A stretch of DNA of 35,790 nucleotides from a virus: positions 4,791-40,580 of the IMG/VR virus record IMGVR_UViG_3300030328_002396, one strand, 5' to 3'. The notes under the pieces are model-generated. The model did not search any database. It saw only the letters and a program-made list of their open reading frames with translations, and had not been told where the DNA came from. Of this stretch, positions 1,858-35,790 are shown piece by piece. The position numbers were made by a program, and so were the translations under genes. Numbering within the stretch: position 1 is the first letter of the stretch; the number at the start of each line of letters is the position of its first letter.

Positions 1858-1889
1858 AAACAAATTAAATTAACTTAAATTAAATAAAA

Positions 1890-2162
1890 ATGGCAAAAAA
1901 GAAAGAAAAGGTAGTAGACCTTAAACCTACAAATATTACTGAAGAGCAATTAAAAGCAATTCAAGAAATAGTTTCACCTATTAACAACATGCAAATGGAA
2001 GTAGGTAGAATAGAATCTAGAAAACACATGCTTATGCATGAGGTTGGTATGCTTCAAGGAAAACTTCAAGAGCAACAAAAAGCTTTAGAAGAAGAGTATG
2101 GTAAAGTAAATATTAACATACAAACTGGAGAAATAAACTACGATGTCGAAGCTGATTCGTAA
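1890..2162 (+). CDS. Short coiled-coil protein of unknown function
   Basis: The 90-residue product has a basic head (MAKKKEKVVDLKP), a long helix from about residue 17 to 72 with heptad-like hydrophobic spacing and many Gln/Glu (for example EQLKAIQEIVSPINNMQ and LQGKLQEQQKALEEEYG), and a beta-like tail (KVNINIQTGEINY). The ending EEYGKVNINI is familiar to me from small uncharacterised proteins of marine phages. The start is preceded by 32 noncoding bases that are nearly all A and T. It overlaps the next gene by 20 bases. A virion or assembly-helper role is inferred only from the neighbours. Confidence 0.62.
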   Translation: MAKKKEKVVDLKPTNITEEQLKAIQEIVSPINNMQMEVGRIESRKHMLMHEVGMLQGKLQEQQKALEEEYGKVNINIQTGEINYDVEADS

Positions 2163-2364
2163 AATATCTATAGGTAAAGATTATAAGAATGACGCCATGC
2201 ACTATGCCGTTGGGCAAGAGGTGTATGGTGGTCATACTATATGTGATATTATAGAAGAAGATGATAAGTTTAGTGTTTATATTAAGAAGAATAAAGATGT
2301 ACTTCCTTGGAAAGATTTTAATAAAAACATGGCTGTATCTGTAGAATATAATTTAGAGTATTAA
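2143..2364 (+). CDS. Small conserved-looking hypothetical protein
   Basis: The 73-residue product reads as a compact mostly-beta protein: a basic head (MSKLIRKISIGKDYKN), a strand-rich middle with Gly-Gly-His-Thr-Ile, an acidic turn (IIEEDDKFSVYIKKN) and an aromatic tail ending VEYNLEY. No motif was recognised. It overlaps the previous gene by 20 bases and its stop overlaps the next ATG (TAATG), placing it in a tightly coupled run of small genes ahead of the terminase. Confidence 0.6.
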   Translation: MSKLIRKISIGKDYKNDAMHYAVGQEVYGGHTICDIIEEDDKFSVYIKKNKDVLPWKDFNKNMAVSVEYNLEY

Positions 2365-2942
2365 TGAGGTCGGTGTACAACTTTGTTGTAACACCAATAA
2401 ATTCAAGGTACAATAATACAAAAGACATAGGCGGTAAAGAGCTTATAGTTAACACAGAAATATCTAACCACCAATATGTGAGTAGAAAAGCTGTTGTCAA
2501 AGAAGTACCTATTATTGGTGATACAGACATTAAAGTAAATGATATTGTGATTGTTCATCATAACGTTTTCAGAAGATGGCATAATCAACACGGTGCAGAA
2601 AAGAATAGCAGAAGTTATATAAATGAAGAAACTTATTTAGTACAACCTGATCAAATATTTTTACATAAAGACACCGAATGGCGCGCACAGAAAGGTTATT
2701 GCTTTGTCGCTCCAATAAAATCTACAAATAATCTAAATGTAGATATAGAAAGACCTTTAGTTGGTATTGTTAAATATACAGATGGCACTGTTAACAAGGG
2801 TGACTTAATAGGTTTTAGACCTAGCTCAGAATATGAGTTTATTATAGACGGTCAAAAACTATATAGAGTATTATCAAATTTTATTACAATCAAATATGAA
2901 TATCAAGGAGACGAAGAAGAGTATAATCCAAGCTGGGCATAA
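2364..2942 (+). CDS. Protein with two GroES-like (co-chaperonin) halves
   Basis: In the 192-residue product two segments each follow the GroES pattern: a Gly/Val strand, a hydrophobic-x-x-(Gly)Asp-x-Val strand, then a 'tyr-leu-val ... ile' closing strand. Half one has RKAVVKEVP (41-49), IKVNDIVIVHHNVF (56-69) and a YLVQPDQIFLHKD closing strand. Half two has VGIVKYTDGTV (133-143), NKGDLIGFRPSSEYEF (144-159) and KLYRVLSNFITIKYE. GroES caps GroEL, and phage co-chaperonins such as T4 gp31 adapt it for folding the capsid protein. That role here is an inference, supported by placement just before terminase and head genes. No GroEL-like gene is in view. A plain beta-barrel virion protein is the alternative. 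Confidence 0.55.
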   Translation: MRSVYNFVVTPINSRYNNTKDIGGKELIVNTEISNHQYVSRKAVVKEVPIIGDTDIKVNDIVIVHHNVFRRWHNQHGAEKNSRSYINEETYLVQPDQIFLHKDTEWRAQKGYCFVAPIKSTNNLNVDIERPLVGIVKYTDGTVNKGDLIGFRPSSEYEFIIDGQKLYRVLSNFITIKYEYQGDEEEYNPSWA

Positions 2943-3171
2943 AGCAGTTGAAGAACTGATTAAAGTTGCTAAAGAAGCTATTGTAGACTCTGATGACGAT
3001 ATATCAGCTGATAGATTAAAAAATGCCGCAGCTACTAAAAAACTAGCTATATTTGACGCATTCGAAATACTTAATAGAATTCAAGAAGAAGAAAACTTAC
3101 TTGAGGGAAAAACACCTGAAAAGAAAGAGGAAAAAATCTTTAAAGGATTCGCCGAAGGTAGATCTAAATAA
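2896..3171 (+). CDS. Putative small terminase subunit
   Basis: The 91-residue, all-helical, charged product has one long helix pair: about 5-30 (IIQAGHKAVEELIKVAKEAI) and 38-68 (ADRLKNAAATKKLAIFDAFE...RIQEEENLLEG), then a Lys/Glu-rich tail. It lies directly before the large terminase, sharing one base with its start (TAATG), which is the usual place for the small subunit that recognises phage DNA. The size fits T4 gp16-like small terminases rather than longer ones. No helix-turn-helix is obvious. The start lies 47 bases inside the previous gene; no downstream Met exists to shorten it. A terminase-adjacent helper remains possible. Confidence 0.5.
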   Translation: MNIKETKKSIIQAGHKAVEELIKVAKEAIVDSDDDISADRLKNAAATKKLAIFDAFEILNRIQEEENLLEGKTPEKKEEKIFKGFAEGRSK

Positions 3172-5384
3172 TGTACGAGCAAGATTTAGTTAAGACGGTA
3201 GAGCCTATAAAAAAGACTACAATAAGTAGACTTAACAAGGGTAAGAAATGGGAATACGGTTACAATAAAGAACATGATATTGTCGTTATATCTAAGAGCG
3301 GTCAGATAGGAGAGATAATTGAAATACAAAATTTCCAAATAGCTTTACCAAAGGAGCGTAGTGTGTATAGCAACAAGGAGAAAAAGTGGAAACAGTTTGA
3401 ATATCCTAAAGAATTAAGTAGACTTAAAAATATATTTGACTGGAGAGCATATCCTGAAGAGAAGAAATCACAGTGGTATGATTATATAGACGAAGAATTT
3501 AAACGAAGAGAAGAAGGTTTCTGGTTTAACAACAACGGTATACCAACATACATAACAGGTACTCATTATATGTACCTGCAATGGAGTAAGATTGACGTAG
3601 GTGCTCCTGATTTTAGAGAGGCAAATAGATTATTCTTTATATTTTGGGAAGCTTGTAAAGCAGATAAAAGGTGTTACGGAATGTGTTATCTTAAAAATAG
3701 ACGATCTGGATTCTCTTTTATGTCATCAGCTGAAACAGTTAACCAGGCTACAATATCAAGTGATGCAAGGTTTGGAATACTATCCAAAACAGGTGCTGAT
3801 GCTAAAAAGATGTTTACTGACAAAGTAGTGCCAATTAGTATAAATTATCCATTTTTCTTCTCACCCATCCAAGATGGTATGGACAGACCCAAGTCCGAAC
3901 TTGCTTATAGGGTTCCGGCTAGTAAGTTTACTAGAAAGAAAATAACGTCTAATGAAAAGCTAGAAGATTTACAAGGATTAGATACAACTATAGATTGGAA
4001 GAACACAGGAGATAATAGTTATGATGGTGAAAAGCTAAAACTATTAGTGCACGATGAGAGTGGTAAGTGGGAAAGACCTGATAATATTTTAAATAACTGG
4101 AGAGTTACAAAAACATGTTTACGATTAGGTAGTAGAATTATAGGTAAATGTATGATGGGCTCAACATCAAACGCTTTAGATAAAGGTGGAGAAAACTTTA
4201 AAAAACTATACAATGCATCAGACGTTACTAAGCGAAACAGAAATGGACAGACAGCGTCTGGTCTATATTCTCTTTTTATCCCAATGGAGTGGAACTACGA
4301 AGGATTTATTGATGAGCATGGAAGCCCAATCTTCAATACTCCGGATCATGATGTCTTCGACCCACATGGGGAATTAATAGACATAGGAGTTATAGACAGT
4401 TGGCAGAACGAGGCCGACGGTTTAAAAAACGATCAAGACGCGTTAAACGAATTTTACAGACAATTTCCAAGAACTACTGAGCACGCTTTTAGAGACGAGA
4501 CTAAGAACAGTATATTTAACTTAGTTAAAATATATGAGCAGATAGATTATAACGAAGAAATGTCTAGGACCTTGGGAATTACAAGGGGTAATTTTCAATG
4601 GATTAATGGTGTTAAAGATTCTAAAGTAATATTTTATCCAGATCCTAAAGGTAGATTTAAAATAAGTTGGACACCGCCCTCTAATATACAGAATAACATT
4701 ATTATAAAAAATGGTATTAAATGGCCTGGTAATGAACACATGGGAGCTTTTGGTTGTGATAGTTATGACATATCAGGAACCGTAGATGGTGTGGGATCTA
4801 AAGGAGCTTTACACGGTTTAACTAAGTTTAGTATGGAAGATGCGCCTGCTAACAGCTTTTTTTTAGAATACTTAGCAAGACCACAAACTGCAGAAATATT
4901 TTTTGAAGATGTTTTAATGGCATTAGTATTTTATGGAATGCCAATACTTGCGGAGAACAATAAACCAAGATTATTATATTATTTAAAAAGAAGAGGATAT
5001 AGAGGCTTTAGTATGAATAGGCCGGATAAAATATGGAACAAACTATCTGTTTCAGAAAAAGAAGTTGGTGGAATACCTAACTCAAGTGAAGATATAAAAC
5101 AAGCCCACGCTGCTGCTATCGAAATGTATATTCAAGATCACGTAGGTATAAAGCAAGATGGAACGTTTGGAGATTTGTACTTTAATGAATTATTAAACGA
5201 TTGGGCTAGATTCGATATAAATAAGAGAACAAAGCATGATGCATCTATTAGTTCTGGTTTAGCTATTATGGCTAACAATAGACACCTTTACAGACCAAAT
5301 GCACCAATACAAAAACCTAAACTGAACTTAAGTATTGCTACATATAACAACAAAGGTAATACATCTAAATTAATTAAAAAATAA
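3171..5384 (+). CDS. terL: Terminase large subunit (DNA packaging ATPase-nuclease)
   Basis: The 737-residue product has the two domains of phage packaging motors. In the ATPase half the Walker A-like loop is LKNRRSGFSF (174-183), which lacks the usual GKS/T but matches the deviant lambda gpA style with lysine early in the loop (K175) and G-aromatic-S. Walker B is LLVHDES (291-297) with catalytic-type E296. In the nuclease half (RNase H-like fold) acidic positions include D530 in AFGCDSYD and D690 in KRTKHDASISSG. The long N-terminal part (1-165) includes aromatic segments such as FWFNNNGIPTYITG. It pumps DNA through the portal encoded three bases downstream. Its start overlaps the putative small subunit by one base. 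Confidence 0.93.
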   Translation: MYEQDLVKTVEPIKKTTISRLNKGKKWEYGYNKEHDIVVISKSGQIGEIIEIQNFQIALPKERSVYSNKEKKWKQFEYPKELSRLKNIFDWRAYPEEKKSQWYDYIDEEFKRREEGFWFNNNGIPTYITGTHYMYLQWSKIDVGAPDFREANRLFFIFWEACKADKRCYGMCYLKNRRSGFSFMSSAETVNQATISSDARFGILSKTGADAKKMFTDKVVPISINYPFFFSPIQDGMDRPKSELAYRVPASKFTRKKITSNEKLEDLQGLDTTIDWKNTGDNSYDGEKLKLLVHDESGKWERPDNILNNWRVTKTCLRLGSRIIGKCMMGSTSNALDKGGENFKKLYNASDVTKRNRNGQTASGLYSLFIPMEWNYEGFIDEHGSPIFNTPDHDVFDPHGELIDIGVIDSWQNEADGLKNDQDALNEFYRQFPRTTEHAFRDETKNSIFNLVKIYEQIDYNEEMSRTLGITRGNFQWINGVKDSKVIFYPDPKGRFKISWTPPSNIQNNIIIKNGIKWPGNEHMGAFGCDSYDISGTVDGVGSKGALHGLTKFSMEDAPANSFFLEYLARPQTAEIFFEDVLMALVFYGMPILAENNKPRLLYYLKRRGYRGFSMNRPDKIWNKLSVSEKEVGGIPNSSEDIKQAHAAAIEMYIQDHVGIKQDGTFGDLYFNELLNDWARFDINKRTKHDASISSGLAIMANNRHLYRPNAPIQKPKLNLSIATYNNKGNTSKLIKK

Positions 5385-22619: not shown

Positions 22620-23039
22620 ATGGATAACAGTATAAAATTTCGTAGTTTTAACAACAAAGACTACGACAAGGTCTCAAAGTGGTGGGATTGGTGGTGGGGA
22701 GAACAAGGGGCTATAGAAAGAGAATTTTTACCACATAACGATTATTGTTTTATAATAAGCAAAGGTGAGGTGTGTATAGCATCAGGTTTTTTGTTTGTAG
22801 ATAAACACGCGCCAGTTGCTTATTTAACTTACATCGTTTCAAATCCTGAATACAGGGAAAAAGATAGGAGAAGTATTATAGAACAATTAATACTTAATAT
22901 AGAAGAACACGCAAAACTACAAGGTATAAAGTTTATATTCACAGTGTGCGGCAATGTTCACATGGAAAATATACATAAAAAATTAAACTGGACAATAGAC
23001 AAGTCGGCTCCAGCTTACGAAACTTACAAATACATATAA
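22620..23039 (+). CDS. GNAT-like acetyltransferase domain protein
   Basis: The 139-residue product follows the GNAT layout: a Trp-rich N-terminal helix (KVSKWWDWWWGEQGA), a beta core (DYCFIISKGEVCIASGFLFV, then APVAYLTYIVSNPEYR), a helix after the acetyl-CoA loop (REKDRRSIIEQLILNIEEHA), a strand (GIKFIFTVCGNVHMENIHKK) and a C-terminal tail (LNWTIDKSAPAYETYKYI). GNAT enzymes transfer acetyl groups from acetyl-CoA to amines. The usual R/Q-x-x-G-x-G/A loop here reads YREKDRRS with no glycine, so binding may be altered. The substrate is unknown; neighbours are all virion genes. The start is preceded by 49 noncoding A/T-rich bases. Confidence 0.68.
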   Translation: MDNSIKFRSFNNKDYDKVSKWWDWWWGEQGAIEREFLPHNDYCFIISKGEVCIASGFLFVDKHAPVAYLTYIVSNPEYREKDRRSIIEQLILNIEEHAKLQGIKFIFTVCGNVHMENIHKKLNWTIDKSAPAYETYKYI

Positions 23040-23040
23040 A

Positions 23041-23949
23041 ATGGGAGGAAAAGCACGTAGAAGAATAGCAAGAGAAGCCAACGAAATGGCTGCTCAACAA
23101 CTTAAGGTTTATAAAGAGGAACAAAAAATACAAAGAGGTATTTATGAAAAACAAAAAGCTGAATACAAAAGTTTTCAGTTTAAAAATCCTTATGCAGGAT
23201 TACAAAATTACTACGAAGGCATGGAAAATGTTTTTGAAGATTTAACTGTTGATACTCAAGCGGCAGAATTCCAAATGGAAAGAGGTGAGCAACAAAGAGC
23301 AAATATTATGGAGGCTTTCCGAGCTTCTGCTGGTGGTTCTGGTATAGCTGGTTTAGCGCAATCGCTAGCCAATCAAGGTATTTTACAAGCTAGTCAAGTC
23401 TCTGCTAGCATAGCTCAACAAGAAAGACAAAATCAAATTATGATGGCTAAAGGAGCTAGTCAAATCCAAACAATGGAAAGACAAGGTTTGTCTGCTGCAG
23501 ATATGGCTATGAGAGGTGGTGAGGCTATGGTTCAGCAGGCAGAAATGTCTAGACAGTCAACGCTTCTTGGCGTAGAAATGAGCGGTATGGCTGGTGCCAA
23601 TGCTGGCGTTCAATCTGCTTACGCAAACCAGATGAGTGCAAAAGCTTTAGATGCTCAAATGTTAGGAGCTCAAATGGGTATGTGGGGTAATATAATAAGT
23701 GGTGTTGCTCAAGGTGCTGGTACTGGATATGCTTCTGATAGAAGATTAAAGAAAAATATTAACTTAATAGGTAAATCACCTAAAGGTTTAAATATATATT
23801 CTTTTGAATACATAAACAAAGATTATGGATCTGGAGTTTACCAAGGCGTAATGTCTGATGAGATGCCAAGAGGAGCTGTTTCTATTGATTTTGACGGCTA
23901 CGATATGGTTGATTATAGTATGATTGACGTAGACTTTAAACAAATATAA
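23041..23949 (+). CDS. Ala/Gln-rich likely ejection protein with C-terminal S74-type motif
   Basis: The 302-residue product has a basic helical head (KARRRIAREANEMAAQQLKV), a segment YKSFQFKNPYAGLQNYYEGM with FEDLTVDTQAAEFQMERG, and a long Gly/Ala/Gln/Met-rich helical region (about 95-225), reminiscent of small internal virion proteins such as T7 gp14. At 232 it changes to SDRRLKKNINLIG, the Ser-Asp-x-Arg-Leu-Lys signature of peptidase S74 intramolecular chaperones, with S232 and K237 in the dyad positions, then GVYQGVMSDEMPRGAV and VDYSMIDVDFK. Only 71 residues follow the serine, shorter than the usual S74 domain. It begins the 302-690-3084 gene series. Confidence 0.68.
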   Translation: MGGKARRRIAREANEMAAQQLKVYKEEQKIQRGIYEKQKAEYKSFQFKNPYAGLQNYYEGMENVFEDLTVDTQAAEFQMERGEQQRANIMEAFRASAGGSGIAGLAQSLANQGILQASQVSASIAQQERQNQIMMAKGASQIQTMERQGLSAADMAMRGGEAMVQQAEMSRQSTLLGVEMSGMAGANAGVQSAYANQMSAKALDAQMLGAQMGMWGNIISGVAQGAGTGYASDRRLKKNINLIGKSPKGLNIYSFEYINKDYGSGVYQGVMSDEMPRGAVSIDFDGYDMVDYSMIDVDFKQI

Positions 23950-23951
23950 TT

Positions 23952-26024
23952 ATGGCAAAAAAACAAAATCCGTTAGGTTCTTTAGTGCCTGTAACAGACA
24001 CAAATTTAGTTAACCAAGCATATAGAATGGCTATGGCCAACGTGCCTAAAGACTTAAGTGGTATACACAACCGTATAGCCGCTTCTTACGCCGCTGGAGC
24101 AGACGCTCTTGGCAAAGGTATTGCTGAGGTTTTTAAAACAGCTGGTCAAATATATGCTAAAGTAAAAGAAGAGTCAGATCAAGAGGAAACTGACACAAAA
24201 GCATCAAGAGAATTTAAAAATGGTAAAATTGCTGTAGATACAGATTACTCGAAAGTTCAAGGTTATGAACCTGACGGAGACGTATACTATAGATTCGACG
24301 ATGAAGCAACAACTGATGTAGATGAAGGCGACGTCATACTTCGTAGTGAAATAGAAACTCCGATAACATACAATAGCGTTGATTATAATGGTAATAGCGA
24401 AACTATTTCAGTAATGAACTTTGATGAACATCAAAAACATTTAAAAGCTTTAAAGAAAAAAGTTAGATCTAATAAAAATTTAAGTTTTAATGAAAAAAGG
24501 CGTAAATTAAAAAAATTAAGTGACAGGGAAGATATGGCTAGAGAATCTTCTATATTATTTTTAAAAACAGAGGCTGAAATTGATGATTTAATTAAAAACG
24601 GAGACTTATCAGAAAATGCAACTAATGTTCAGAAAATTCAGTTTTTAAGAGCTATAAAAAATAATGGAAAATTAGTTGATGATGGAAACGGCAACAAAAC
24701 AAGAGCTTTAATGGGTTTTAACCAAGAGGGTGAAATTGTATTTAGCTATGTTGACGAAGAAGGAAGACCTATAAAAGATAAATCTGGAAACCCTATAACT
24801 GTCCGTCCGGGCGAAGCTAAGTCTTTAGTTACACCGAAAGATTCGGAAATGAGGAATAAAATAAATACTATTCAAGACGAGTATATAAAACTTGGCTCTG
24901 AAGGTAATCAATTTGACGACGCATACAACAGTAGGCAGGGTACTGCAATTACTGCTGCAATATCAAGTAAGAAAAAATTTAATGATTTTTTAGGGTTTAA
25001 ACCGGAAGGATTTGGCCAAAACTTTGAACAAGCTGTTAATGGTATTGGAGATGAAAATACTGAAGGAATAGAACTAAGTAATCTACCTGAACAATTATTT
25101 AATTCTCTCCCTAAAGACTTTGTGCCAGATAACGATAATAGTGGAGGTGTAAGTGCTGGTGATTTCCAAACAACGGAAAACTATAAAAAACTTAGAGACG
25201 CTATTTTAAACACAGAAGATAAAAATTTTGATTTATCAAGATCAGCTTTGGTTGCTAAAGAATTTTTAATTAGTAAGTTTAAAGTTGACAGCGCGGGTGC
25301 TCTAAAAATATATACAGATGATCCTGCAAATGCTGCTGCTATTGCTAAGAAGAAAAGAGAGCAACAAGTAATACCACAAGTAGTATTAACCCAAGAACAA
25401 CAAGAACTACAAGGTATAATTGCAAACTTAGAAAAAACAGAGGGTGGTAGAAAAGCTTTAAATCAAATAGGTACGTTTACAGAAATTATACAAGCTGGAG
25501 GAGAAGGTCAACAAATTATTGATCTAAACTTAGATTCTGGTGGAAATATTATAAAAAATATTAAAGTAGATTCTAAAGCAGGAAAAATTACTACAACTAA
25601 TGTAGATAAGGGTACTGGTAACACAGTTACGAAAGAAGTAACACTTAGAGAGGCTGTGACTCTTATCTCAAATAATTCTGGTCTTTCTGTCAACAAAGTT
25701 ATTGATTTAATGGGATTAAAAGATGGAAGAAATATAGTAACAACAATGTTTGAGAAAAGTGGGGCTGATAAAGGCTATGGTTTTATTGGAGCTCCAGAAG
25801 GAGGTAGAGGCGAAGATGCAGCCCTTGTGTTATTCCAAGATAAATATAAGGATATAAAAGACCTAAACGTGAGTGTTAAAAGTGATGGAAAAGACAAGTT
25901 ATTCTTCAACTATCCTGGTGCTAGAGCTTTTGAATACGACCCTATGTTAACAGGTGACAAATATAACACGCAGTTGAACGGTCTTAAAGCTTGGTTTCAA
26001 ACATATCAAATTAAATCAAAATAA
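23952..26024 (+). CDS. Likely internal virion (ejection/cargo) protein
   Basis: The 690-residue product has a mixed Ala-rich helical head (QAYRMAMANVPKDLSGIHNR, then IAASYAAGADALGKGIAEVF), a basic helical stretch (HQKHLKALKKKVRSNKNLSF), a disordered-looking acidic centre, and a mixed C-terminal domain (TTTNVDKGTGNTVTKEVTLR, AFEYDPMLTGDKYNTQLNGL). There is no signal peptide, membrane helix or catalytic motif. It sits between a gp14-like protein and a giant protein, matching the place and relative size of T7 gp15 in the gp14-gp15-gp16 ejection set. This comparison is by order and size only, not sequence. It starts two bases after the upstream stop. Confidence 0.6.
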   Translation: MAKKQNPLGSLVPVTDTNLVNQAYRMAMANVPKDLSGIHNRIAASYAAGADALGKGIAEVFKTAGQIYAKVKEESDQEETDTKASREFKNGKIAVDTDYSKVQGYEPDGDVYYRFDDEATTDVDEGDVILRSEIETPITYNSVDYNGNSETISVMNFDEHQKHLKALKKKVRSNKNLSFNEKRRKLKKLSDREDMARESSILFLKTEAEIDDLIKNGDLSENATNVQKIQFLRAIKNNGKLVDDGNGNKTRALMGFNQEGEIVFSYVDEEGRPIKDKSGNPITVRPGEAKSLVTPKDSEMRNKINTIQDEYIKLGSEGNQFDDAYNSRQGTAITAAISSKKKFNDFLGFKPEGFGQNFEQAVNGIGDENTEGIELSNLPEQLFNSLPKDFVPDNDNSGGVSAGDFQTTENYKKLRDAILNTEDKNFDLSRSALVAKEFLISKFKVDSAGALKIYTDDPANAAAIAKKKREQQVIPQVVLTQEQQELQGIIANLEKTEGGRKALNQIGTFTEIIQAGGEGQQIIDLNLDSGGNIIKNIKVDSKAGKITTTNVDKGTGNTVTKEVTLREAVTLISNNSGLSVNKVIDLMGLKDGRNIVTTMFEKSGADKGYGFIGAPEGGRGEDAALVLFQDKYKDIKDLNVSVKSDGKDKLFFNYPGARAFEYDPMLTGDKYNTQLNGLKAWFQTYQIKSK

Positions 26025-26047: not shown

Positions 26048-29000
26048 ATGGAAGAGCTAGAAAATTTAGTATTTGACATGTATCAAGCTGGTAAAACTGA
26101 TGAAGAGGTTAGTCAGTTTGTTGCCGAATATAAAGCGAAAAAAGAGGGAAACCAAGACGGCTCTACATCGAATGTGGACGCAACAGTAGAGCCGAATACC
26201 AATATGGCGTCCGCTTCGGGAGGTACTTCTTCGGTTGTATTAAATCCTAATTTTAAACATATAACAGCTGCTGAGCTTAATGATCATGATTTTCACACGG
26301 TTGAAGGAGATATAGCTCCAAAATTAGAAAAACTGTATGGGGAAGATTTTTACATAGATACCGATTATGATGGTTTTCTTTTTGGCGTTGATATGCAGGA
26401 TAAAGTTAGAATTCGAAACAAGAAAAACGGTAAGACAAAAGAATTTCAATTAAACCAATACGTGTCAAGAAACGACGGTATGGCGCTACTTGAAAAAGAT
26501 ATAAAAGAATTTACAGAATCTTCAGCTAGTGCAGATCAAAATGATAAATCAGAAGATTATAAAAGAAGAAAAAATATTTATAATACAACTGGCTCTCTTA
26601 GCGTTGATGATAGTATAAACTATATTGATTTAACATATACAGATTCAGATAAAATATCAAATACGGCTTTTATAAGTAGACAAAAATTTAACCAAAGAGA
26701 TGGTAAGTTTTCAAAACTTACCCCATTTGACAATCTTTTTAGTGGACAATATAATCCAGACAGAACTGAAGCAAATGTTGATAAGATAGAAGAAATAATG
26801 TCTGATGTCTCTAGACACATGCAGTATGAATTAAAACAACTACCTACGTCTGCTTTTGGTAAAGATTTTACTATTCATCCAGACCAAAGACCGAGATTGT
26901 TGAAAAAAGTATTTGATAATATAAATAAAACAGGCGACTACTTATTACCTTGGGATCAATTTGAAAAATTAACAGGAGGGACAAGTGATTCTTTTTTAAA
27001 TAATGAAATTAAAAAAGTAATGAGCAAACCTGTTAATAATCAACATCTCAAAAAGACTAATGACGAGACGTTAGATCCCGTTGTTAAAGAGAAAATATTA
27101 GATAAGTGGTATAAGGAATTACCACCGCAATGGAAAGACAAAGCTGATTTAGTTGAAGAAAGAACTCCTCTAGAAACCTCTAGAAAAGAAATAGAATTCA
27201 AACTTCAAAATGAAACAGATCCATTAGAAGCAATGAAACTTCGAAATAGCTTATTTGACATTGACGCACAGATTGATGATATAAATAAACTTATAAAAAA
27301 TTTACCAGAAAAACATGACGATCTCTGGAGTTGGGAGAAAGAAGACCTAGTTAGTATGTGGGCAGCAAAAGGAATGTCTGAACCTAGAGCACAATTAATG
27401 GCAGAAGCTTTTGATCAAGCTAGAAACGGTGGTGCTGAAGACAATATGGAAAGGATTAAAAGAGAAAATCCTATGTTGACAGATAGAGAGGCAATGCTTA
27501 TGTACTTAGATGAACTAATGTTAAATGAGCAAACCATATTGAAACAAGGCTCGCAAACAATGATCAATATTGATCTATCAAAATTAGGAACTGATAAAAA
27601 GAAAATAGATCAAAACTTCATAAATAAAATCAAACAATCTGGGAATTATGCTGAAACTTTAGACGGTGAGATTGGTGAAATTGAAATTTCTGTAGCTGAT
27701 TTAATGTCTTTAGGTTTCGATGCTAGAGATTTTAAGGGTTGGTTTGATGAGTGGCAAACTAGTGGAGCTATAAACATGGAGGATCTACAGTTGTTGGAAA
27801 GTTACGAAGAAGCTAGAGATTATAACGCTGGATCAATGAGAGCTGTTTATGAACTTACACATTTAGATAGAAATCCTAAGTCTATAGCATCAGGAACCGG
27901 TAGTGTTGAAGGTGTTTTATTGAACACTCTTTCTGCTGTATCTACTTTTTCTGAAAGTGGTGGAAAAACAATATTGAAAGAGTGGTTCGATATGAGCGAG
28001 AGAGAGGCTGGAAAATCAATCGCACAAGGTCGTACAGAAGGTCCAAGTAGAGAATACACAAATAGAGCTCTATTAGATAATATGAATATGGCCGCGGCTG
28101 ATTTTAACGAGGAAAATAGAGAGGCTATCGAAAAAGGAGACATGTCAGCTTTAGTTTGGTCTGAAGAACAGTTGAAATCAATAGAAAGAACTTTTTCTGA
28201 TGGAGTTGCAGAGGGTGTTGGGCAATTTGTCCCAACATTAATAGAGCTAGCCGCTATAACACTAGCTTCCGACGGGATGTTAACGGCGACCGGTGGCGCT
28301 GCTTATTTAGCTCGACTAAAAAAAGCCACTGACGTTTGGAGTAAAATGAAACTTCATACATCTATGCTGGCTTTAGAGGAACTTAAGATGCAAGTTGCTG
28401 GATTCAAAGCTGGTTCTGGTGCTTCTTTTTATATTGGTGGTGCTCTAACACCTTGGTTTAGACCTGGCGCTTTACCAATGGGTGTAGGTACAACTCTTAA
28501 AGGATTAGATCCTCTATGGAATAAAACATTTAAAGCTGGTATTGTTGGTGCTGGTTCTGGAGAGTTTGCTCAAATAACAGAATTAGGATGGGAAACTTTA
28601 ATGGGAGAAGCGGATTGGTCAACAGAAATGAATAATTTATTTGGTGACTGGGATGAAGTTGAACAAAGAATGATGACAAATGCTTTTGTGTTTGGTATTG
28701 CGCATCAAATGGGTAAAGGAAGAATTAAGACAGGACTTCGTTCTAGATATGAAATTGGTGATTTTCACATAACAGCTGGGGCTAAGTTTAGAGTGAAAAA
28801 GAGAATTAATGATAAATTAGAAAAATTAAAATACACAGAGAGTGATAGAAATGAAGTTAATAAACTTGAAAAACAATTAGAAAAGTTAGAAAAAGATTTT
28901 AAATCTAAAAAAATTGAAAAAAACGAGTACGATCTACAAAAAGAACTTATTAAATTAAATATAAAAAGTTATAGAAAAAGAGAGATTTATGAGCTCAAAG

Positions 29001-32000
29001 GAAAAGAAAAAGAAGTGTTTGAGGCTTACGGAAGATCTTGGATAGACCTTACAAATTTAGCAAATGCTCAAGCTCATAGTAGAAAATTAGATCCATTCGG
29101 TGGTTATAGTGAAAGTGCATACAAGAAACTCGATAAAGCAACACAAGATAAGATATCCAGCAGTTTTGAGGCTAATTACCAGAGAATTGTAATTGATCCT
29201 ATAAATACTTTGTTTGGTAGTGCTAATAAAAATTTCAAACCGTTAACAGTTCAGTTTGTAAATTCAAAACAAGCTAAGACTTTATTTGAAGACTTAAATA
29301 ATGTTGCTGAGTATGACAAAAAGAATAACTCTATAATGTTTAATAAAGAAAAGTTTTCAATAGGCACGTCTAATCACGAGTTAGTACACATGGCCTTAAG
29401 ACAAGTTTTTAATAGTTATGGAGAACGTATGCAAATCCGCTTTGAAAAAAGAATAGACAATGTTTTTGAAAAAGCATTTGGTAAAAAACTAAATGATTGG
29501 CTCGCTGAAAATGTTCAAGAATTTTATACCAAAGAAAAAGGTGTTCAAGTAGGTAGAGAAGAGTTTTTAACTAATTTAACAGAGGTTATAACTAATCCAG
29601 ATATTTATTACACACAAGTAAATACTAATTTTATAAAAAATGCAAGTCAAGAAATTAAGAGTTTCTTAGAAGAAATACATCCAGCTTTAGGTAAATATTT
29701 TAAACCTAAAACAGCTAAGGGTTTTGTAGAATTTTTAGGTAGACTTGGAGACTCTGGTAGAACTGGTAGAAAAACAGCTGGAAAATTATTAAATTTATCA
29801 AAGTTAGAAGACATAAGCTTTTTAGGTATAGAATATAGAGGAACTGTTGGTAAGAGCGAGGGTAAAATGGCTGGTAGAGATCTTGCTAGAGAAAAAGAAG
29901 TTCTTAAAAATGAGAATATATCTTTGGGTAAAAATAAACCTAAAGAAACAGGGAAGGTGTTTCCAAAAACAATCAAAGTCGGTGGTAAAGAAAAACCACA
30001 TCCAAAAGCCGGACAGAAAATGACTTGGAGAGATGTTATGACTGAAAATGTTAAGGAAATAAAAGATATTAATAAACTTATAGAAAGAAACGAATTAACA
30101 AAAGAGTTAATTGATAAATATGGGCCTTTAAACGAAAAGGTTAAAGAAGGAAATGCTCCAGAATCTACAAGGCTGCGTCACTCCATGATATTTGAAAAAC
30201 TAAGAGAGAATAACATGTATATCTTAGATCAGTATATTCTCGATCCAATTTATGGTTATAAAGACGTAAAGGGATCAAATTTAACTTTTGAATCGTTTTC
30301 TAAATATGTTAAAAACACCGAGTTTCAAAAACTTGTTGAAACCTATTTAAAAAGAGATGTTAAATTTAAAGACGTTCCATTTGGGGCTTACCTAAGAGAT
30401 AATATAAAGTTTAGAACTGGTAACATACTAAAAGCATTAAAAGTAAATTTAGACCAACAGTTAAAATTTGTATCAAGAGACGCCCCTGGTTATAGTGAAA
30501 AAGAAATAGGTTATGATGGGGGAATGAATTTTGGCGGAGGTAGAACTGAAATTAAAACCGAAAATAATTTGCTAGATATAATTGCAAATTTACCTCTTCA
30601 GCAAAACCATATTACTACAATTGAAAATAAAATAATAAATCAAGAAGGTGTTTTTAAGAATTTTCAATACGATGTTACTAGAAAAAAGGACGGGCAATAC
30701 ATAACGGAAACTTTAAATTTAGATTATTTTGGATTAGAAGATTTAGCGCCTAGTTTAACTAAAAAAATGTTTGGTAAATCTACTCAAGACAAAGCTAATT
30801 TTATAGCAAATGAATGGAAATATCTCCTCTCTTTAAACGCAAAGAACCTAACAGAAACAACTGGTACTAAAACAGGCGTGCCAAATGTTTTAATGACTAG
30901 AAAAGTTCCTAAAGGAACTGAAGGAGCGTACGAAACGACAAATGCAAAGGGTGAAAAAGTATACATGAAAGATGTTTTTTACGAAAAAACTGGTATAGAT
31001 GTTGCATTTAAAGATACTGGCGCTAGAACTGGTACCGAATTACAAAAAGTAAAAGACCTAAATAAAAAGCAATATTTACAAGAATATGGTATTGTAGATA
31101 ATAGGACTAAAGAGGTTATTGAAAGAGCTAGAGAGATACACAATAAAAAATCTGCAGGCGAAAAAATAACAGCGGAAGAAAAAACTTTTATGAAGGAAAA
31201 CGGTAATGTAGATATTTCTAATATGAAGTTAGATAGAAACATTATAGCATCTTTAATTCCAGCAACAGAAGGTGTGACTGGTAGAGCTGTGACAAATAGA
31301 ATTACTGAAAATTTCTTAAGAAAACATCCTCAGTATATTGAGCATATAGCCAGAAAAGAAAGTTTAGAAACAATAATAAATGAATTTACCTCTGGTAAAA
31401 GTGATAAAATAGCTGGTAAGGATTTAGCGAAGATGTATAAGCAGCATGGTTTAAAAACAGAGTATCAAGAAATGGTTGCAGACGTGGCTAGATTCATGAG
31501 AGATGAAGTGAAGTTTAAAAAGCAATCTCCAGAAAGATACAATGCTGTTAAAGATTATATAGAATTACAAAGTAAATACGAAGCAATAAGAGGTAAAGAA
31601 CAAGAAATAAGATTTACTAAAGAGACTAAAAAAATCAACGCAACATGGGCGCGAGGTGGTAGCTGGCAAGTTTCTAGTAGCAAGTTTAAAAATAACAAAG
31701 AATTACTAAAAGAATGGGAAACCTTATCTTTTGAACTAGCTGACATAATAAATTTACCACCTGGATCTACAAAAGGTAATTTAAAGATGATGATTGATTT
31801 GTTTACTGGTCATTATGGTGTTTTAAGAGGTGTTGAAAAATGGGATTTAGTTGATAGTCCTTGGAAAGTTGGGTTAAGAGAAAGACTTACTAATGGTAAA
31901 GAATCTCCTTTGTCAAAAAGCCTTCAAAAAAGACTTAGAGAATTTCCTTGGGACAAATTAAAGGGATCATATGCTTCTCAATTCTTAACTGGATACAAAG

Positions 32001-35000
32001 ACGTTTTAGCGACTGATGGTCTAAAAACTCAGAAAGAAAAAACTAGAAAGTTTATGAATTCTGAAAATGGAAAACTACAAGTTGAACTATACGATCTTTG
32101 GAATAGTGTTTTGCAAGAGTGGGTAAACTTAAGCCCAAGAGATGTAAAATCTAAAAAAGATATAAATTCAGATTATAATAGAAAAATGAATTTTATAGCT
32201 AGAATGAAAAAACATAATTCTAGTATAGGTACCACAGGAGAGCGTGTTTTAGCACCAGCTGGTTATTATTACTTACCTGGCAAGGTTGATATGGGTACAA
32301 TTAAGTTTGAGCATTTAAAATCTAGCAGCGAACAATCATACGAATCTTTATTAATGATTTCTGAAGGCGCTTGGAAAACTAAAGGGAAAAAATCTTTAGA
32401 AAAATATAAAGGAATATGGGGTCTTCTTAGAGATTTTAAAACAATAGACAAAGCAACAGGAGCAACAAATAGTTCTAATATACATAGACTTGCTGAAAGT
32501 TTAGAGCTAGCAAAAAGTATATGGAGTGTTGAAAGTAATTTGAAAAGAAGTTTATACCAAGATATAGTTAAAGAGGTGGGTCAAAAAACGGTAGACCAAA
32601 TAATGAAGACAGATAAAAAGCTAACTAAGAAAAATAGAGAAATGCTGCAAGATCTTGGTTTATTAGCGTCTAAAAATTTAAGTGGAAAAGTTGCTCGAGA
32701 ACATATTAGTGTTGTAGATAAAGCCTTAGCTGAGGGTAGAACGTTTAAAAAGAAAAATAGAGGTATGTCTACGTTTGATTTTGACGAAACCGTAGGTATT
32801 AGTGAAAACTTTATAGTTGCCACTAAAGGAAAACAAAAAAGAAAAATAGCATCTGCTGAATGGCCTTTTGTTGGTGATAAATTATTGTCTGAAGGTTGGA
32901 AAATGGACTTTACTGATTTTAATAAGGTGACTAAAGGTAAACCAGGACCGTTGATGCAAAAAATGAAAAATCAAATTAAAAAATTTGGTCCTGATAATGT
33001 TTATATTTTAACAGCTAGAGCGCCAGAAAGCGCTTCAGCAATTCATGCTTGGCTAAAGAGTCAAGGTGTTGAAATACCTTTAGAAAACATTACTGGCTTG
33101 GGTAATAGCACTGGAGAAGCAAAAGCAATGTGGATGTTAAAAAAGTTTTCAGAAGGATATAATGACATGTATTTTGTTGACGACGCTTTACCTAACGTAA
33201 AGGCGGTTAAAAGCGTTTTAGAACAATTAGATATAAAGTCTAACGTACAACAGGCTAGAATTTTAGCTGGTAAAAACTTTGATTCAAAAATTAATGAGAT
33301 GATGGAGTACTCTTTAAATATAGGTGCTGATAAAGTTTTTTCAAAAGCAGAGGCTAAATTTAGAGGAAAAGATAAAAAAAGAAGAAAGTTTTTTATGACA
33401 GACTCTGCCTCTGATTTAGAATTGCTTATAGAGCCTTTGTATGGTAAAGGTAAAAAAGGTATTGAAAATCAAAAGTGGTTTAAAGACAATTATCTTAAAA
33501 CTTGGGAGAGAGGTATAAACGATTTAAATACAGCTAGGCAATCTATAGTGACTGATTATATGTCACTGCGTAAGGAAAATAAAGGTGTTGTTAAAAAGTT
33601 AGACAAAGTTATAGAAGGAACTAGTTTTACAAACGATGCTGCTATGAGGGTTTATATATGGAATAAAAAAGGATTAGAAGTTCCTGGATTAGCTGAAAAA
33701 TCAAGAAAAAAATTAATTAAACATATAGAGAGTAACCCAGAACTTCTTGTTTTTGCAGAAAGAGCTGCTGAAATAACTAAATTAGAAACAGGTTTTAAAC
33801 CACCAAAAGAAACTTGGTGGGCTGAAAGTATAGCTAGTGAAATCAGCGAAATAGGGCAAGGTGTTAGTAGACAAAAGTATTTGAAAGATTGGATGGAAAT
33901 GTCAAAAGAAATATTTTCTGAAAAAAACCTAAACAAAATGGAGGCTGAGTTAGGTTCTTTATGGAGAGAGTCTATGGAAGATATGCTTTATAGAATGGAA
34001 ACTGGCACAACTAGAAAAAAAGATTTAGGTAGAATTGGTAACACTATAATGGATTATCTAAACGGATCTACTGGTGCGATTATGAGTTTAAACACAAGAT
34101 CAGCTACGTTACAATTAATATCTACGGTGAATTTTATAAACCATGCTGAAAACAATCCGTTTGCCGCAGCAAGAGCTTTTGCTAATCAAAAACAATATTG
34201 GAAAGACTTTATGTATATTATGAATTCTGATATGTTAAAGCAGAGACGTGATGGTTTACAGATAAATGTTTCTGAAGCTGAACTAGCAGCTGCGGTGCAC
34301 AACAAAAATAACAAAGCAAGAAGAGCTATAGCATATATATTAAAACAAGGTTATATACCTACAAAAATTGCGGATAGTTTTGCTATTGCCTCTGGTGGTG
34401 CTACGTATTATCGTAATAGAATTAAAATGTATCAAAAACAAGGCTTGGATTTAAAACAAGCCGAGGCTAAAGCTTGGGTTGATTTTCAAGCTATAGCAGA
34501 AAGAACTCAACAGTCTGCAAGACCAGATCTTTTATCTAAACAGCAAGTTTCTTTCGAGGGTAGGTTAGTTCTCCCGTTTTCAAACACTCCAATGCAAATG
34601 AACAGAATAATGATGAAAGAGGTTCTTGATTTGTCTAAAGGTAGATATGAAGGTTTTTATGGAGAAAATTCGTTTACTAATAAAATGAGTAAAGTAGCTT
34701 ATTATGGCGGTATACAATCAGCTATATTTGCCGGGCTACAAACTGGTTTATTTGCACTTTTAGCTTTTGCGGAAGACACTGATGATAATACGGAGACAAT
34801 AGCTAATAAAAAATTACAAGCAATGAACACTATGTCTGACTCTTTTTTAAGAGGTATGGGTGTTCCAGGTACCGTGGTTTCAGGTTTGAAAAATGGTATT
34901 TTGAAATTTTACGAACAAGATAAGAAAGATTGGACTGCTGATTACAGTGAGGTAGGAGAAGCGTTGTTAAATATATCTCCTACAGTAGGATCAAAATTTA

Positions 35001-35302
35001 GTTTGATGGACGCTGGTGGTAATACTTATAAATACAATAAAAAAGAAATTAAAACTAGAGGACTTAGCATTGAGAACACTAAAGCAGCAGAAGCTGCTTC
35101 ACAATACACACAAGCCATCACAAACGTTCCTGTTAATAGAGTTTTTAAAAAAATAGAAAACATACAAGGGGCTTTAGACCAACGAAACGAAGCTTGGCAA
35201 AGAGTGATGTTGATGATGGGTTGGAGTAAGTGGGATCTTGGAGCAGCTAATGCAAAAAATAAAAAACCTAAAAAAACTAAAAAAATATTTACTGGAATAT
35301 GA
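26048..35302 (+). CDS. Giant virion protein with metallopeptidase and HAD-phosphatase motifs
   Basis: The 3084-residue product starts with an acidic helical region (1-170). Hydrophobic, membrane-like segments lie near 719-750 (FVPTLIELAAITLASDG) and around 800-850. A long charged coiled coil covers about 918-995. A zincin motif HELVH lies at 1110-1114 (SNHELVHMALRQVF), with a possible third ligand in a later Glu (GREEFLTNLTEV). A region near 1443-1480 reads VPFGAYLRDNIKFRTGNI. A HAD-like domain follows at about 2238-2400: D2244 and D2246 in TFDFDETV, T2322 in YILTAR, K2359, and D2378-D2379 in YFVDDALP. A conserved-looking C-terminus contains LVLPFSNTPMQMNRI, a hydrophobic stretch, and NEAWQRVMLMMGWSKWDLG. 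Position and size fit a T7 gp16-type ejected protein. It is likely polyvalent. Confidence 0.72.
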   Translation: MEELENLVFDMYQAGKTDEEVSQFVAEYKAKKEGNQDGSTSNVDATVEPNTNMASASGGTSSVVLNPNFKHITAAELNDHDFHTVEGDIAPKLEKLYGEDFYIDTDYDGFLFGVDMQDKVRIRNKKNGKTKEFQLNQYVSRNDGMALLEKDIKEFTESSASADQNDKSEDYKRRKNIYNTTGSLSVDDSINYIDLTYTDSDKISNTAFISRQKFNQRDGKFSKLTPFDNLFSGQYNPDRTEANVDKIEEIMSDVSRHMQYELKQLPTSAFGKDFTIHPDQRPRLLKKVFDNINKTGDYLLPWDQFEKLTGGTSDSFLNNEIKKVMSKPVNNQHLKKTNDETLDPVVKEKILDKWYKELPPQWKDKADLVEERTPLETSRKEIEFKLQNETDPLEAMKLRNSLFDIDAQIDDINKLIKNLPEKHDDLWSWEKEDLVSMWAAKGMSEPRAQLMAEAFDQARNGGAEDNMERIKRENPMLTDREAMLMYLDELMLNEQTILKQGSQTMINIDLSKLGTDKKKIDQNFINKIKQSGNYAETLDGEIGEIEISVADLMSLGFDARDFKGWFDEWQTSGAINMEDLQLLESYEEARDYNAGSMRAVYELTHLDRNPKSIASGTGSVEGVLLNTLSAVSTFSESGGKTILKEWFDMSEREAGKSIAQGRTEGPSREYTNRALLDNMNMAAADFNEENREAIEKGDMSALVWSEEQLKSIERTFSDGVAEGVGQFVPTLIELAAITLASDGMLTATGGAAYLARLKKATDVWSKMKLHTSMLALEELKMQVAGFKAGSGASFYIGGALTPWFRPGALPMGVGTTLKGLDPLWNKTFKAGIVGAGSGEFAQITELGWETLMGEADWSTEMNNLFGDWDEVEQRMMTNAFVFGIAHQMGKGRIKTGLRSRYEIGDFHITAGAKFRVKKRINDKLEKLKYTESDRNEVNKLEKQLEKLEKDFKSKKIEKNEYDLQKELIKLNIKSYRKREIYELKGKEKEVFEAYGRSWIDLTNLANAQAHSRKLDPFGGYSESAYKKLDKATQDKISSSFEANYQRIVIDPINTLFGSANKNFKPLTVQFVNSKQAKTLFEDLNNVAEYDKKNNSIMFNKEKFSIGTSNHELVHMALRQVFNSYGERMQIRFEKRIDNVFEKAFGKKLNDWLAENVQEFYTKEKGVQVGREEFLTNLTEVITNPDIYYTQVNTNFIKNASQEIKSFLEEIHPALGKYFKPKTAKGFVEFLGRLGDSGRTGRKTAGKLLNLSKLEDISFLGIEYRGTVGKSEGKMAGRDLAREKEVLKNENISLGKNKPKETGKVFPKTIKVGGKEKPHPKAGQKMTWRDVMTENVKEIKDINKLIERNELTKELIDKYGPLNEKVKEGNAPESTRLRHSMIFEKLRENNMYILDQYILDPIYGYKDVKGSNLTFESFSKYVKNTEFQKLVETYLKRDVKFKDVPFGAYLRDNIKFRTGNILKALKVNLDQQLKFVSRDAPGYSEKEIGYDGGMNFGGGRTEIKTENNLLDIIANLPLQQNHITTIENKIINQEGVFKNFQYDVTRKKDGQYITETLNLDYFGLEDLAPSLTKKMFGKSTQDKANFIANEWKYLLSLNAKNLTETTGTKTGVPNVLMTRKVPKGTEGAYETTNAKGEKVYMKDVFYEKTGIDVAFKDTGARTGTELQKVKDLNKKQYLQEYGIVDNRTKEVIERAREIHNKKSAGEKITAEEKTFMKENGNVDISNMKLDRNIIASLIPATEGVTGRAVTNRITENFLRKHPQYIEHIARKESLETIINEFTSGKSDKIAGKDLAKMYKQHGLKTEYQEMVADVARFMRDEVKFKKQSPERYNAVKDYIELQSKYEAIRGKEQEIRFTKETKKINATWARGGSWQVSSSKFKNNKELLKEWETLSFELADIINLPPGSTKGNLKMMIDLFTGHYGVLRGVEKWDLVDSPWKVGLRERLTNGKESPLSKSLQKRLREFPWDKLKGSYASQFLTGYKDVLATDGLKTQKEKTRKFMNSENGKLQVELYDLWNSVLQEWVNLSPRDVKSKKDINSDYNRKMNFIARMKKHNSSIGTTGERVLAPAGYYYLPGKVDMGTIKFEHLKSSSEQSYESLLMISEGAWKTKGKKSLEKYKGIWGLLRDFKTIDKATGATNSSNIHRLAESLELAKSIWSVESNLKRSLYQDIVKEVGQKTVDQIMKTDKKLTKKNREMLQDLGLLASKNLSGKVAREHISVVDKALAEGRTFKKKNRGMSTFDFDETVGISENFIVATKGKQKRKIASAEWPFVGDKLLSEGWKMDFTDFNKVTKGKPGPLMQKMKNQIKKFGPDNVYILTARAPESASAIHAWLKSQGVEIPLENITGLGNSTGEAKAMWMLKKFSEGYNDMYFVDDALPNVKAVKSVLEQLDIKSNVQQARILAGKNFDSKINEMMEYSLNIGADKVFSKAEAKFRGKDKKRRKFFMTDSASDLELLIEPLYGKGKKGIENQKWFKDNYLKTWERGINDLNTARQSIVTDYMSLRKENKGVVKKLDKVIEGTSFTNDAAMRVYIWNKKGLEVPGLAEKSRKKLIKHIESNPELLVFAERAAEITKLETGFKPPKETWWAESIASEISEIGQGVSRQKYLKDWMEMSKEIFSEKNLNKMEAELGSLWRESMEDMLYRMETGTTRKKDLGRIGNTIMDYLNGSTGAIMSLNTRSATLQLISTVNFINHAENNPFAAARAFANQKQYWKDFMYIMNSDMLKQRRDGLQINVSEAELAAAVHNKNNKARRAIAYILKQGYIPTKIADSFAIASGGATYYRNRIKMYQKQGLDLKQAEAKAWVDFQAIAERTQQSARPDLLSKQQVSFEGRLVLPFSNTPMQMNRIMMKEVLDLSKGRYEGFYGENSFTNKMSKVAYYGGIQSAIFAGLQTGLFALLAFAEDTDDNTETIANKKLQAMNTMSDSFLRGMGVPGTVVSGLKNGILKFYEQDKKDWTADYSEVGEALLNISPTVGSKFSLMDAGGNTYKYNKKEIKTRGLSIENTKAAEAASQYTQAITNVPVNRVFKKIENIQGALDQRNEAWQRVMLMMGWSKWDLGAANAKNKKPKKTKKIFTGI

Positions 35303-35790
35303 CAAAAAAACTAATTACAATACTATTAATAATTTTAGCCGCTTGCTCAACACCAAAAGAATGCTGTTCGCAAGTAAACTTAAAAAAATATTTTAAATTT
35401 GCTACGTTTTACGCCGCTGCTAATGGTGGTACTTCTATATCTGATGTAGATGTATTTTCTGTTACTAATGGTTTAGAAACAACTACAGTAAAAACACCAT
35501 ACGATTACAACTTAGCTTTGGGTATACGTAAAATAGCTAGATTTGGCTATGAAAATAGAGCTCAAACTTTTTATGATGGTACTGAAAACTCTTGGTCAGA
35601 CGGTGCTAATGTTGGTAAAGCTCGTGGATTAGAATTTTTATTTGAAGTAGATTACAAAAGACAACAAGGTAATGAATATTTAGATCAGCATCACTTTATA
35701 AGATTTGTAGATAACAAATATATATTAAAAGGTGAGTATTTAGAAGATGGTTTTGCAGACATTAAATACTTTGAAACATCGGAAAGATAT
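35299..35790 (+). CDS. Signal-peptide (lipobox) protein, 3' end cut by window
   Basis: The ATG overlaps the stop of the giant gene (ATGA at 35299-35302), so translation is likely coupled, and the frame stays open to the window end (164 codons). The start MTKKLITILLIILAACSTPK has a short basic head, a hydrophobic core and the lipobox LAAC with C16 as the lipidated residue; CCSQ at 22-25 could instead be a signal-peptidase I site. The mature part has alternating strands rich in aromatic residues (YDYNLALGIRKIARFGYENR, GLEFLFEVDYKRQQGNEYLD), like an outer-membrane beta barrel. I recall similar proteins in marine phages. A role in the envelope, such as superinfection blocking, is conjecture. Confidence 0.72.
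   Translation, partial: MTKKLITILLIILAACSTPKECCSQVNLKKYFKFATFYAAANGGTSISDVDVFSVTNGLETTTVKTPYDYNLALGIRKIARFGYENRAQTFYDGTENSWSDGANVGKARGLEFLFEVDYKRQQGNEYLDQHHFIRFVDNKYILKGEYLEDGFADIKYFETSERY

Follow-up and report, generated by a model that had tools for sequence, protein, structure and literature searches.

A giant phage protein with predicted zincin and HAD phosphatase domains, probably an ejected polyvalent protein

A single gene at positions 26048..35302 of a viral DNA stretch of 35,790 nucleotides (the window) encodes a giant protein of 3084 residues. Judging from its sequence, predicted models and analogy with studied phages, the giant is probably packaged in the virion and ejected as a polyvalent protein of a Bacteroidota-related short-tailed phage. 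It would be N4-like, with a HAD phosphatase replacing the polymerase as the delivered enzyme. The window covers positions 4791-40580 of a virus record that is 40,580 bases long, classed as linear and hence perhaps a fragment.

Frame and overall layout of the giant protein

The gene lies on the + strand, starts with ATG and forms one uninterrupted frame, as the original prediction had it. Profile matches and modelling place a helical module at approximately residues 700-1040 (28145..29167, approximate, +). This module is N-terminal to a zincin-like metallopeptidase domain, which is followed by a predicted HAD phosphatase domain and an all-helical C-terminal domain. The membrane-like segments that had been proposed near residues 719-850 and at the C-terminus fared poorly, being weak in the window protein and rare across the family. 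A Kyte-Doolittle mean of 1.6 is reached solely by residues 2889-2907, the maximum for residues 719-749 is 1.44, and about 180 residues separate the "C-terminal" segment from the protein end. Among 111 complete members, 19 have a hydrophobic segment within 450 residues N-terminal to HExxH, and eight have one more than 500 residues past the HAD start. These counts rule out a transmembrane reading as a family feature.

We searched for known relatives of the window protein at the sequence level. Pfam gave nothing above the cut-off, tblastn with residues 685-3084 (residues 1-684 were left out) returned zero matches in 50,697 phage records, and PDB sequence searches yielded no credible match. The PDB row of a murein DD-endopeptidase (phmmer, residues 2108-2278, E 0.092) is weak and was taken as chance, and so were the caspase and coiled-coil rows. 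A pattern search of genome contigs matched 11 stretches, none of which encodes a relative of the giant.

A large family shares the architecture

The first scan for relatives gave 10 loci. With a C-terminus profile, at least 580 viral-contig stretches encoding relatives were found, and with a HAD profile at least 234; 80 loci were kept from each. The kept loci contain 171 ORFs, 141 of which are unique and 116 of the latter complete. The complete unique ORFs have a median length of 2893.5 aa (range 1708-3797), and 114 of them gave matches to both the HAD and the C-terminal domain. At the loci found by the C-terminus profile alone, the HAD is present in 67 of 69 complete unique ORFs, as is HExxH in 67 of 69.

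The two complete ORFs without HExxH are that of L101 and the 1708-aa ORF of L032. The giant of L032 (L032:1918-12019) is encoded as two ORFs, an upstream one of 1566 aa with HExxH and the 1708-aa one with the HAD and C-terminal domains, which may reflect a genuine division of the gene or an artefact of contig assembly. L041, with two HExxH motifs, gave no HAD match, and the ORF of L028 ends ahead of the C-terminal domain, which sits in another ORF. As L101 lacks HExxH and L041 a detected HAD, it may be that neither enzyme is strictly required. DUF5763 was matched in three of 15 diverse giants (members of profile A9), with a best E of 6.7e-7; the match perhaps corresponds to a short Cys/His-containing tail of the family consensus.

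The HAD domain and its candidate substrates

The predicted HAD phosphatase domain spans residues 2237-2397 (32756..33238, +), as delineated by conservation, modelling and structure comparison. All four predicted motifs were located: motif I is D2244-F-D2246-E-T2248, motif II is T2322 (ILTAR), motif III is K2359, and motif IV is D2378-D2379 (FVDD). Over 149 unique rows, gapped rows set aside, D2244, D2246, and T2248 are conserved in 136/136, T2322 and K2359 in 140/140, and D2378 and D2379 in 140/141 each. The AlphaFold2 model of the HAD and C-terminus has a mean pLDDT of 80.3 and a pTM of 0.71, and its residues 108-268 adopt the HAD fold. As in the HAD superfamily, the DxDxT, T, K, and DD motifs are carried by a predicted Rossmann-like fold.

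Structure comparison of this model with VIA gave HAD proteins for most of the best 50 rows, with a best Z of 9.9 and an rmsd mostly of 2.7-4.3 Å; the unrelated KimA and arginyl-tRNA synthetase also appear at Z 8.1-8.4. Folds missing from the VIA listing were not counted as evidence. With Foldseek, the HAD/C-terminus model had no PDB match reaching E≤0.001; class C acid phosphatases occupy the first six places (probability 0.99-1.00, E 0.13-0.15). At the sequence level, PF11019, which we take to be a HAD-type family, is touched by 43 of 52 members (best E 5.3e-6), the window protein itself giving a weak 0.0095. NCBIfam returned weak HAD families for a few of the 11 members whose HAD was scanned (best E 0.0023) and none for the window protein. 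The ResA rows that HAD profiles gave in the PDB (best E 0.0095) cover a short stretch without HAD motif I or IV and were rejected.

We then inspected the surroundings of the HAD in the relatives, and found a Walker A motif in seven of 139 unique ones. In five of these (L021, L036, L037, L039, and L064), the Walker A belongs to a module of some 200 residues that sits nested between motifs I and II of the HAD. The spacing of the two motifs is 276 residues with the nested module versus a median of 77, with 123 of 132 values in the 60-79 bin. The Walker A of L020 likely also lies between motifs I and II, motif I not being recognised there, and the module of L068 is C-terminal to the HAD. The nested arrangement is apparently a domain-in-domain kinase-phosphatase. 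Among the 15 records scanned, only the L021 module has a family match (PF06414, zeta toxin, E 1.4e-12); for the other six relatives, only the near-identical Walker A sequence suggests a kinase. In the window protein, motifs I and II are 76 residues apart and Walker A is absent, so that it lacks the P-loop kinase fused to a HAD phosphatase that characterizes polynucleotide kinase-phosphatases.

The Walker A module of the five relatives hints at nucleic-acid end healing by the HAD. PMC7824862 describes two jumbo-phage HAD families as RNA-repair phosphatases, one of them mostly found in fusion with polynucleotide kinase. Taken together, the Walker A modules and the jumbo-phage enzymes make it reasonable to guess that the HAD heals ends, but no more than that. 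A somewhat less favored but plausible possibility, compatible with an ejected giant, is that the HAD is an acid phosphatase-like nucleotide or sugar-phosphate phosphatase, the role of which would be to degrade a nucleotide used in signalling or metabolism instead of healing ends. The structure rows include class B and class C acid phosphatases, some of them solved with nucleotides, and the nested kinase of L021 matches zeta toxin, the known substrate of which is a UDP sugar; zeta toxin-like kinases also act on other substrates. However, the commonest PHROG match is phrog_415, "polynucleotide kinase", seen in 35 of 52 members with a best E of 4.8e-8, the window protein reaching only 0.037.

The zincin-like domain

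The zincin-like metallopeptidase domain comprises residues 1019-1254 (29102..29809, +), as supported by modelling, structure comparison and conservation. The HELVH motif, expected near residue 1110, is at residues 1110-1114 (29375..29389, +) and forms a predicted zinc-binding and catalytic motif. HExxH is conserved in 114 of the 116 complete relatives, compared with 1.6 expected from composition. In a 72-sequence alignment of residues 690-1300 with a mean column identity of 12%, the only invariant columns are H1110, E1111, H1114, and E1172; the rows were selected for HExxH, and E1172 was no selection criterion. Glu1172 (29561..29563, +), the predicted third zinc ligand, is present in 126 of 127 unique regions.

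The AlphaFold2 model of the zincin region has a mean pLDDT of 69.4 overall and mostly 82-92 in the zincin blocks. In it, a helix on the N-terminal side is followed by three strands, then by the HExxH helix and by a second, C-terminal helix bearing E1172, together a minimal zincin core. PMC5512222 describes this core for the peptidases of polyvalent proteins. The predicted ligand set, HExxH plus a downstream Glu on the second helix, is of the gluzincin type. Both the zincin and the HAD fold thus appear in the models, so that the refuting outcome named with the original prediction, models with neither fold, did not arise.

The zincin model likewise had no Foldseek match in the PDB at E≤0.001. 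In the VIA comparison, anthrax lethal factor takes the first 16 rows, its catalytic domain aligning to model residues 330-566 with Z of 5.0-6.0, which is middling on the VIA scale, and rmsd of 4.2-4.9 Å. MATCAP, collagenases, and small archaeal peptidases match the same model range at Z 2.9-3.8; the lower rows are mixed with membrane-protein rows matching the N-terminal part of the zincin-region model. We take the likeness of the modelled domain to anthrax lethal factor as fold resemblance only. Anthrax lethal factor is reported as a fold relative of the N4 peptidase as well (PMC5512222).

The zincin might be an assembly protease that matures the giant or other head proteins before packaging, with the HAD acting in assembly and not in the new host. 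According to PMC5512222, P1 DdrB is presumably processed prior to packaging, the zincin and HAD of the family are a median of 1015 residues apart, and one contig encodes them in two separate ORFs. Nevertheless, we consider this role unlikely, as the N4 virion RNA polymerase, which has a related zincin, is packaged unprocessed (PMC5512222), and a role in assembly offers no reason for a phosphatase.

C-terminal domain and resemblance to polyvalent proteins

The C-terminal domain of about 650 residues (approximately residues 2420-3070; 33305..35257, +) is all-helical in the model. Comparison with viral models gave 48 matches at E≤0.001. The first four belong to the same family (28-57% identity), and seven of the 48 are named polyvalent, ART-PolyVal or large-polyvalent-associated. 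The alignments with these seven are long, with TM-scores of 0.26-0.44 (by query length) and large rmsd, so the resemblance is a loose overall one and not close kinship. LPD38 was matched neither in the window's own record (0/1) nor in related records (0/18), and the control was matched in none either. LPD23 has a weak match below the cut-off in L041.

Like the phage polyvalent proteins described in PMC5512222, the giant would be a multi-enzyme protein encoded near late virion genes, with a predicted zincin core and a C-terminal fold resembling that of annotated polyvalent proteins. By motifs and models, it has two distinct enzymatic domains, zincin and HAD, in one polypeptide. Unlike in those proteins, the HAD is nearly constant in the window family. 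The main text of PMC5512222 contains neither "dehalogenase" nor any word starting with phosphatase or haloacid, and its three instances of "had" are the verb. In addition, our literature search found no title or abstract describing a giant with the zincin and HAD architecture. The combination of the two enzymes is apparently a novel form of the known multi-tool polyvalent proteins. The idea of a polyvalent protein, put forward in the original prediction, is well supported by the zincin core, the second enzyme, the C-terminal fold and the position at the end of a virion gene cluster.

Comparison with N4 and T7

In N4, gp52, gp51, and gp50 have 150, 644, and about 3500 aa, the same small-medium-giant order, and gp50 is the virion RNA polymerase; its HExxH domain C1 is followed by a large helical C-terminal region, C2 (preprint PMC12633501). 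The window giant resembles gp50 of this Schitoviridae phage in being the last of its cassette, in having an HExxH domain and a helical C-terminus, and in zincin profile similarity. They differ in that a polymerase is N-terminal to the zincin in N4, whereas the window giant has the predicted HAD phosphatase between the zincin and the C-terminus. At the sequence level, no RNA polymerase figures in the Pfam listings of 24 different members, some of them partial; the T7-type single-subunit RNA polymerase domain of N4 was thus not found.

We compared profile A6, which covers the zincin and the stretch preceding it, with a set of six N4-type C1 sequences, five of which are recorded as Schitoviridae. 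The hhalign probability is 75% with a single-pair E of 2.5e-5. The shorter profile Z gave 37%, and both profiles gave 0.2% against reversed C1. N4 alone as a single sequence gave 0.1% and 2.1%, the latter in the C1 comparison. Homology of the C-terminal domain to N4 C2 found no support, with a profile probability of 0.2-0.6%; one decoy pairing, A7 with reversed N4 C2, outscored the genuine pair (2.3% versus 0.2%).

T7 gp16 is the largest protein of a three-protein ejection set (PMC12633501). The window giant would likewise be the largest of three, but it has two other predicted enzymes. In line with the lack of a recognisable lysozyme motif noted earlier, neither Pfam nor PHROGs listed a lysozyme or lytic transglycosylase for the window protein at E≤1 (a scan of sequence; the models start after residues 1-689). 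The N4 virion RNA polymerase is the closer comparison.

The small-medium-giant cassette and its named relatives

The giant gene is preceded by two smaller ones on the + strand. The first encodes a 302-aa virion structural protein (23041..23949; phrog_6121) with a weak S74 chaperone-like C-terminus. The second (23952..26024) encodes a 690-aa protein, placed in the cassette by position, that has no PHROG match at E≤1. An intact ORF with a median of 520.5 aa ends at most 150 nt 5' of the giant in 96 of 114 complete relatives, and a further upstream ORF with a median of 246 aa is present in 83 of 114. The proposed ejection set of rising gene size gains support from the gene order in N4 and in phi18:3. 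The phi18:3 proteins gp120, gp121, and gp123 have 227, 499, and 1935 aa, and all three are annotated with experimental MS/MS; gp122 (103 aa), between gp121 and gp123, has no such annotation. In phi38:1, the annotation of gp099-gp101 is by similarity. The proteins at the place of the 302-aa protein in MW202828, phi18:3, phi38:1, and elemoA (four tested) match phrog_13764, which is labelled virion structural protein, as is phrog_6121 of the window.

Profile A6 was searched against fetched pieces of six named flavophage-like records, namely the isolates phi18:3, phi19:3, phi38:1, elemoA, and Gundel_1 and the environmental genome MW202828. The search set held 287 stop-to-stop frames, the giants among them, plus 287 reversed decoys. 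Nothing was found at default filters. With filters off, the six giants rank first (E 2.5e-11 to 5.6e-5; next match 0.022), a link that appears only in this setting and via helical, strongly biased sequence (bias 20-45 bits). The helical module before the zincin is matched in five of the six, including phi18:3 gp123, a virion protein to which the window giant thus has homology at the profile level. HExxH is present in the giants of elemoA, Gundel, and MW202828 and absent from those of phi18:3, phi19:3, and phi38:1, so the latter three share only the pre-zincin module.

Like the window giant, the named giants are the last or a large virion gene of related phages, with profile homology before and/or at the zincin. 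They differ in length (1691-3859 aa) and gave no credible HAD match (best E 0.079). The elemoA giant has a DUF3293 domain (E 1e-12), and the Gundel giant is encoded 5' of the terminase. The absence of HExxH from three of these six syntenic giants would fit a purely structural or channel protein of T7 gp16 type that keeps both folds without catalytic use, which is very improbable because the catalytic residues are invariant or nearly so across a widely divergent family, and disuse would not preserve them.

Proposed mechanism and implications

Returning to the ejected polyvalent protein, gene order and the MS/MS annotation of phi18:3 suggest that the giant is the final product of the late cluster and is packaged alongside the two smaller proteins. 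On the model of N4 and crAss001, the small proteins would then form a channel, through which the giant would be threaded in a partly unfolded state; partial unfolding of ejected cargo was proposed for crAss001 (PMC10172136). The zincin, with its HExxH and E1172, may cleave its own chain or a host protein, thereby freeing modules. The HAD would dephosphorylate a host or phage substrate early in infection, most likely nucleic-acid 3' ends or nucleotides. The C-terminal helical domain may anchor or package the giant.

If this holds, ejected polyvalent proteins extend to a phosphatase-bearing family with 141 unique ORFs and at least 580 viral-contig stretches, which would provide a second N4-like case for asking the role of the puzzling zincin in giant ejected proteins. 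A counter-defence delivered ahead of gene expression is a possible function. In a more ambitious version, which we deem improbable, a large and mostly uncultured lineage pre-loads its virions with an end-healing HAD 3'-phosphatase, in some members with a nested P-loop kinase, on a self-cleaving N4-like ejection protein, and repairs damage by host nucleases or tRNA-cutting defences before phage gene expression. Natural variants offer built-in tests: the Walker A module within or next to the HAD, the two-ORF split, and the copy without HExxH.

Phage affiliation and neighbouring genes

The giant ORF is encoded among late virion genes. Its 5' neighbourhood on the same strand is a late cluster with a holin, a GroES-like protein, the large terminase, the portal, and virion structural genes. 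The TerL relatives among named phages comprise 87 records, from Flavobacterium (68), Cellulophaga (15), Tenacibaculum (2), Maribacter (1), and an environmental genome (1); the last, MW202828, has a TerL with 63.6% identity to that of the window. As these relatives are in Bacteroidota phages, we place the window phage near Bacteroidota short-tailed phages.

Directly 5' of the cassette, the window encodes a stand-alone GNAT acetyltransferase (22620-23039; PF00583, E 5.9e-5). MW202828 has an annotated acetyltransferase at the equivalent position, and the Gundel giant contains an internal GNAT-like sequence below the cut-off. The GroES-like protein (window 2364-2942; phrog_13932) is encoded shortly 5' of the terminase. 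GroEL-GroES pairs are annotated in MW202828, elemoA, and phi38:1, and the record of the window phage itself (L002) has a putative GroEL gene (L002:1123-2688) adjoined by a short co-chaperonin-like gene (L002:2675-2932). On the 3' side of the giant gene, an ORF at 35299-35790 overlaps its stop in an ATGA and extends past the record end. The start of this ORF, MTKKLITILLIILAACSTP, is one that we take to resemble a lipoprotein signal. ORFs of 345-369 aa are located 3' of the giant in L004, L006, and L032.
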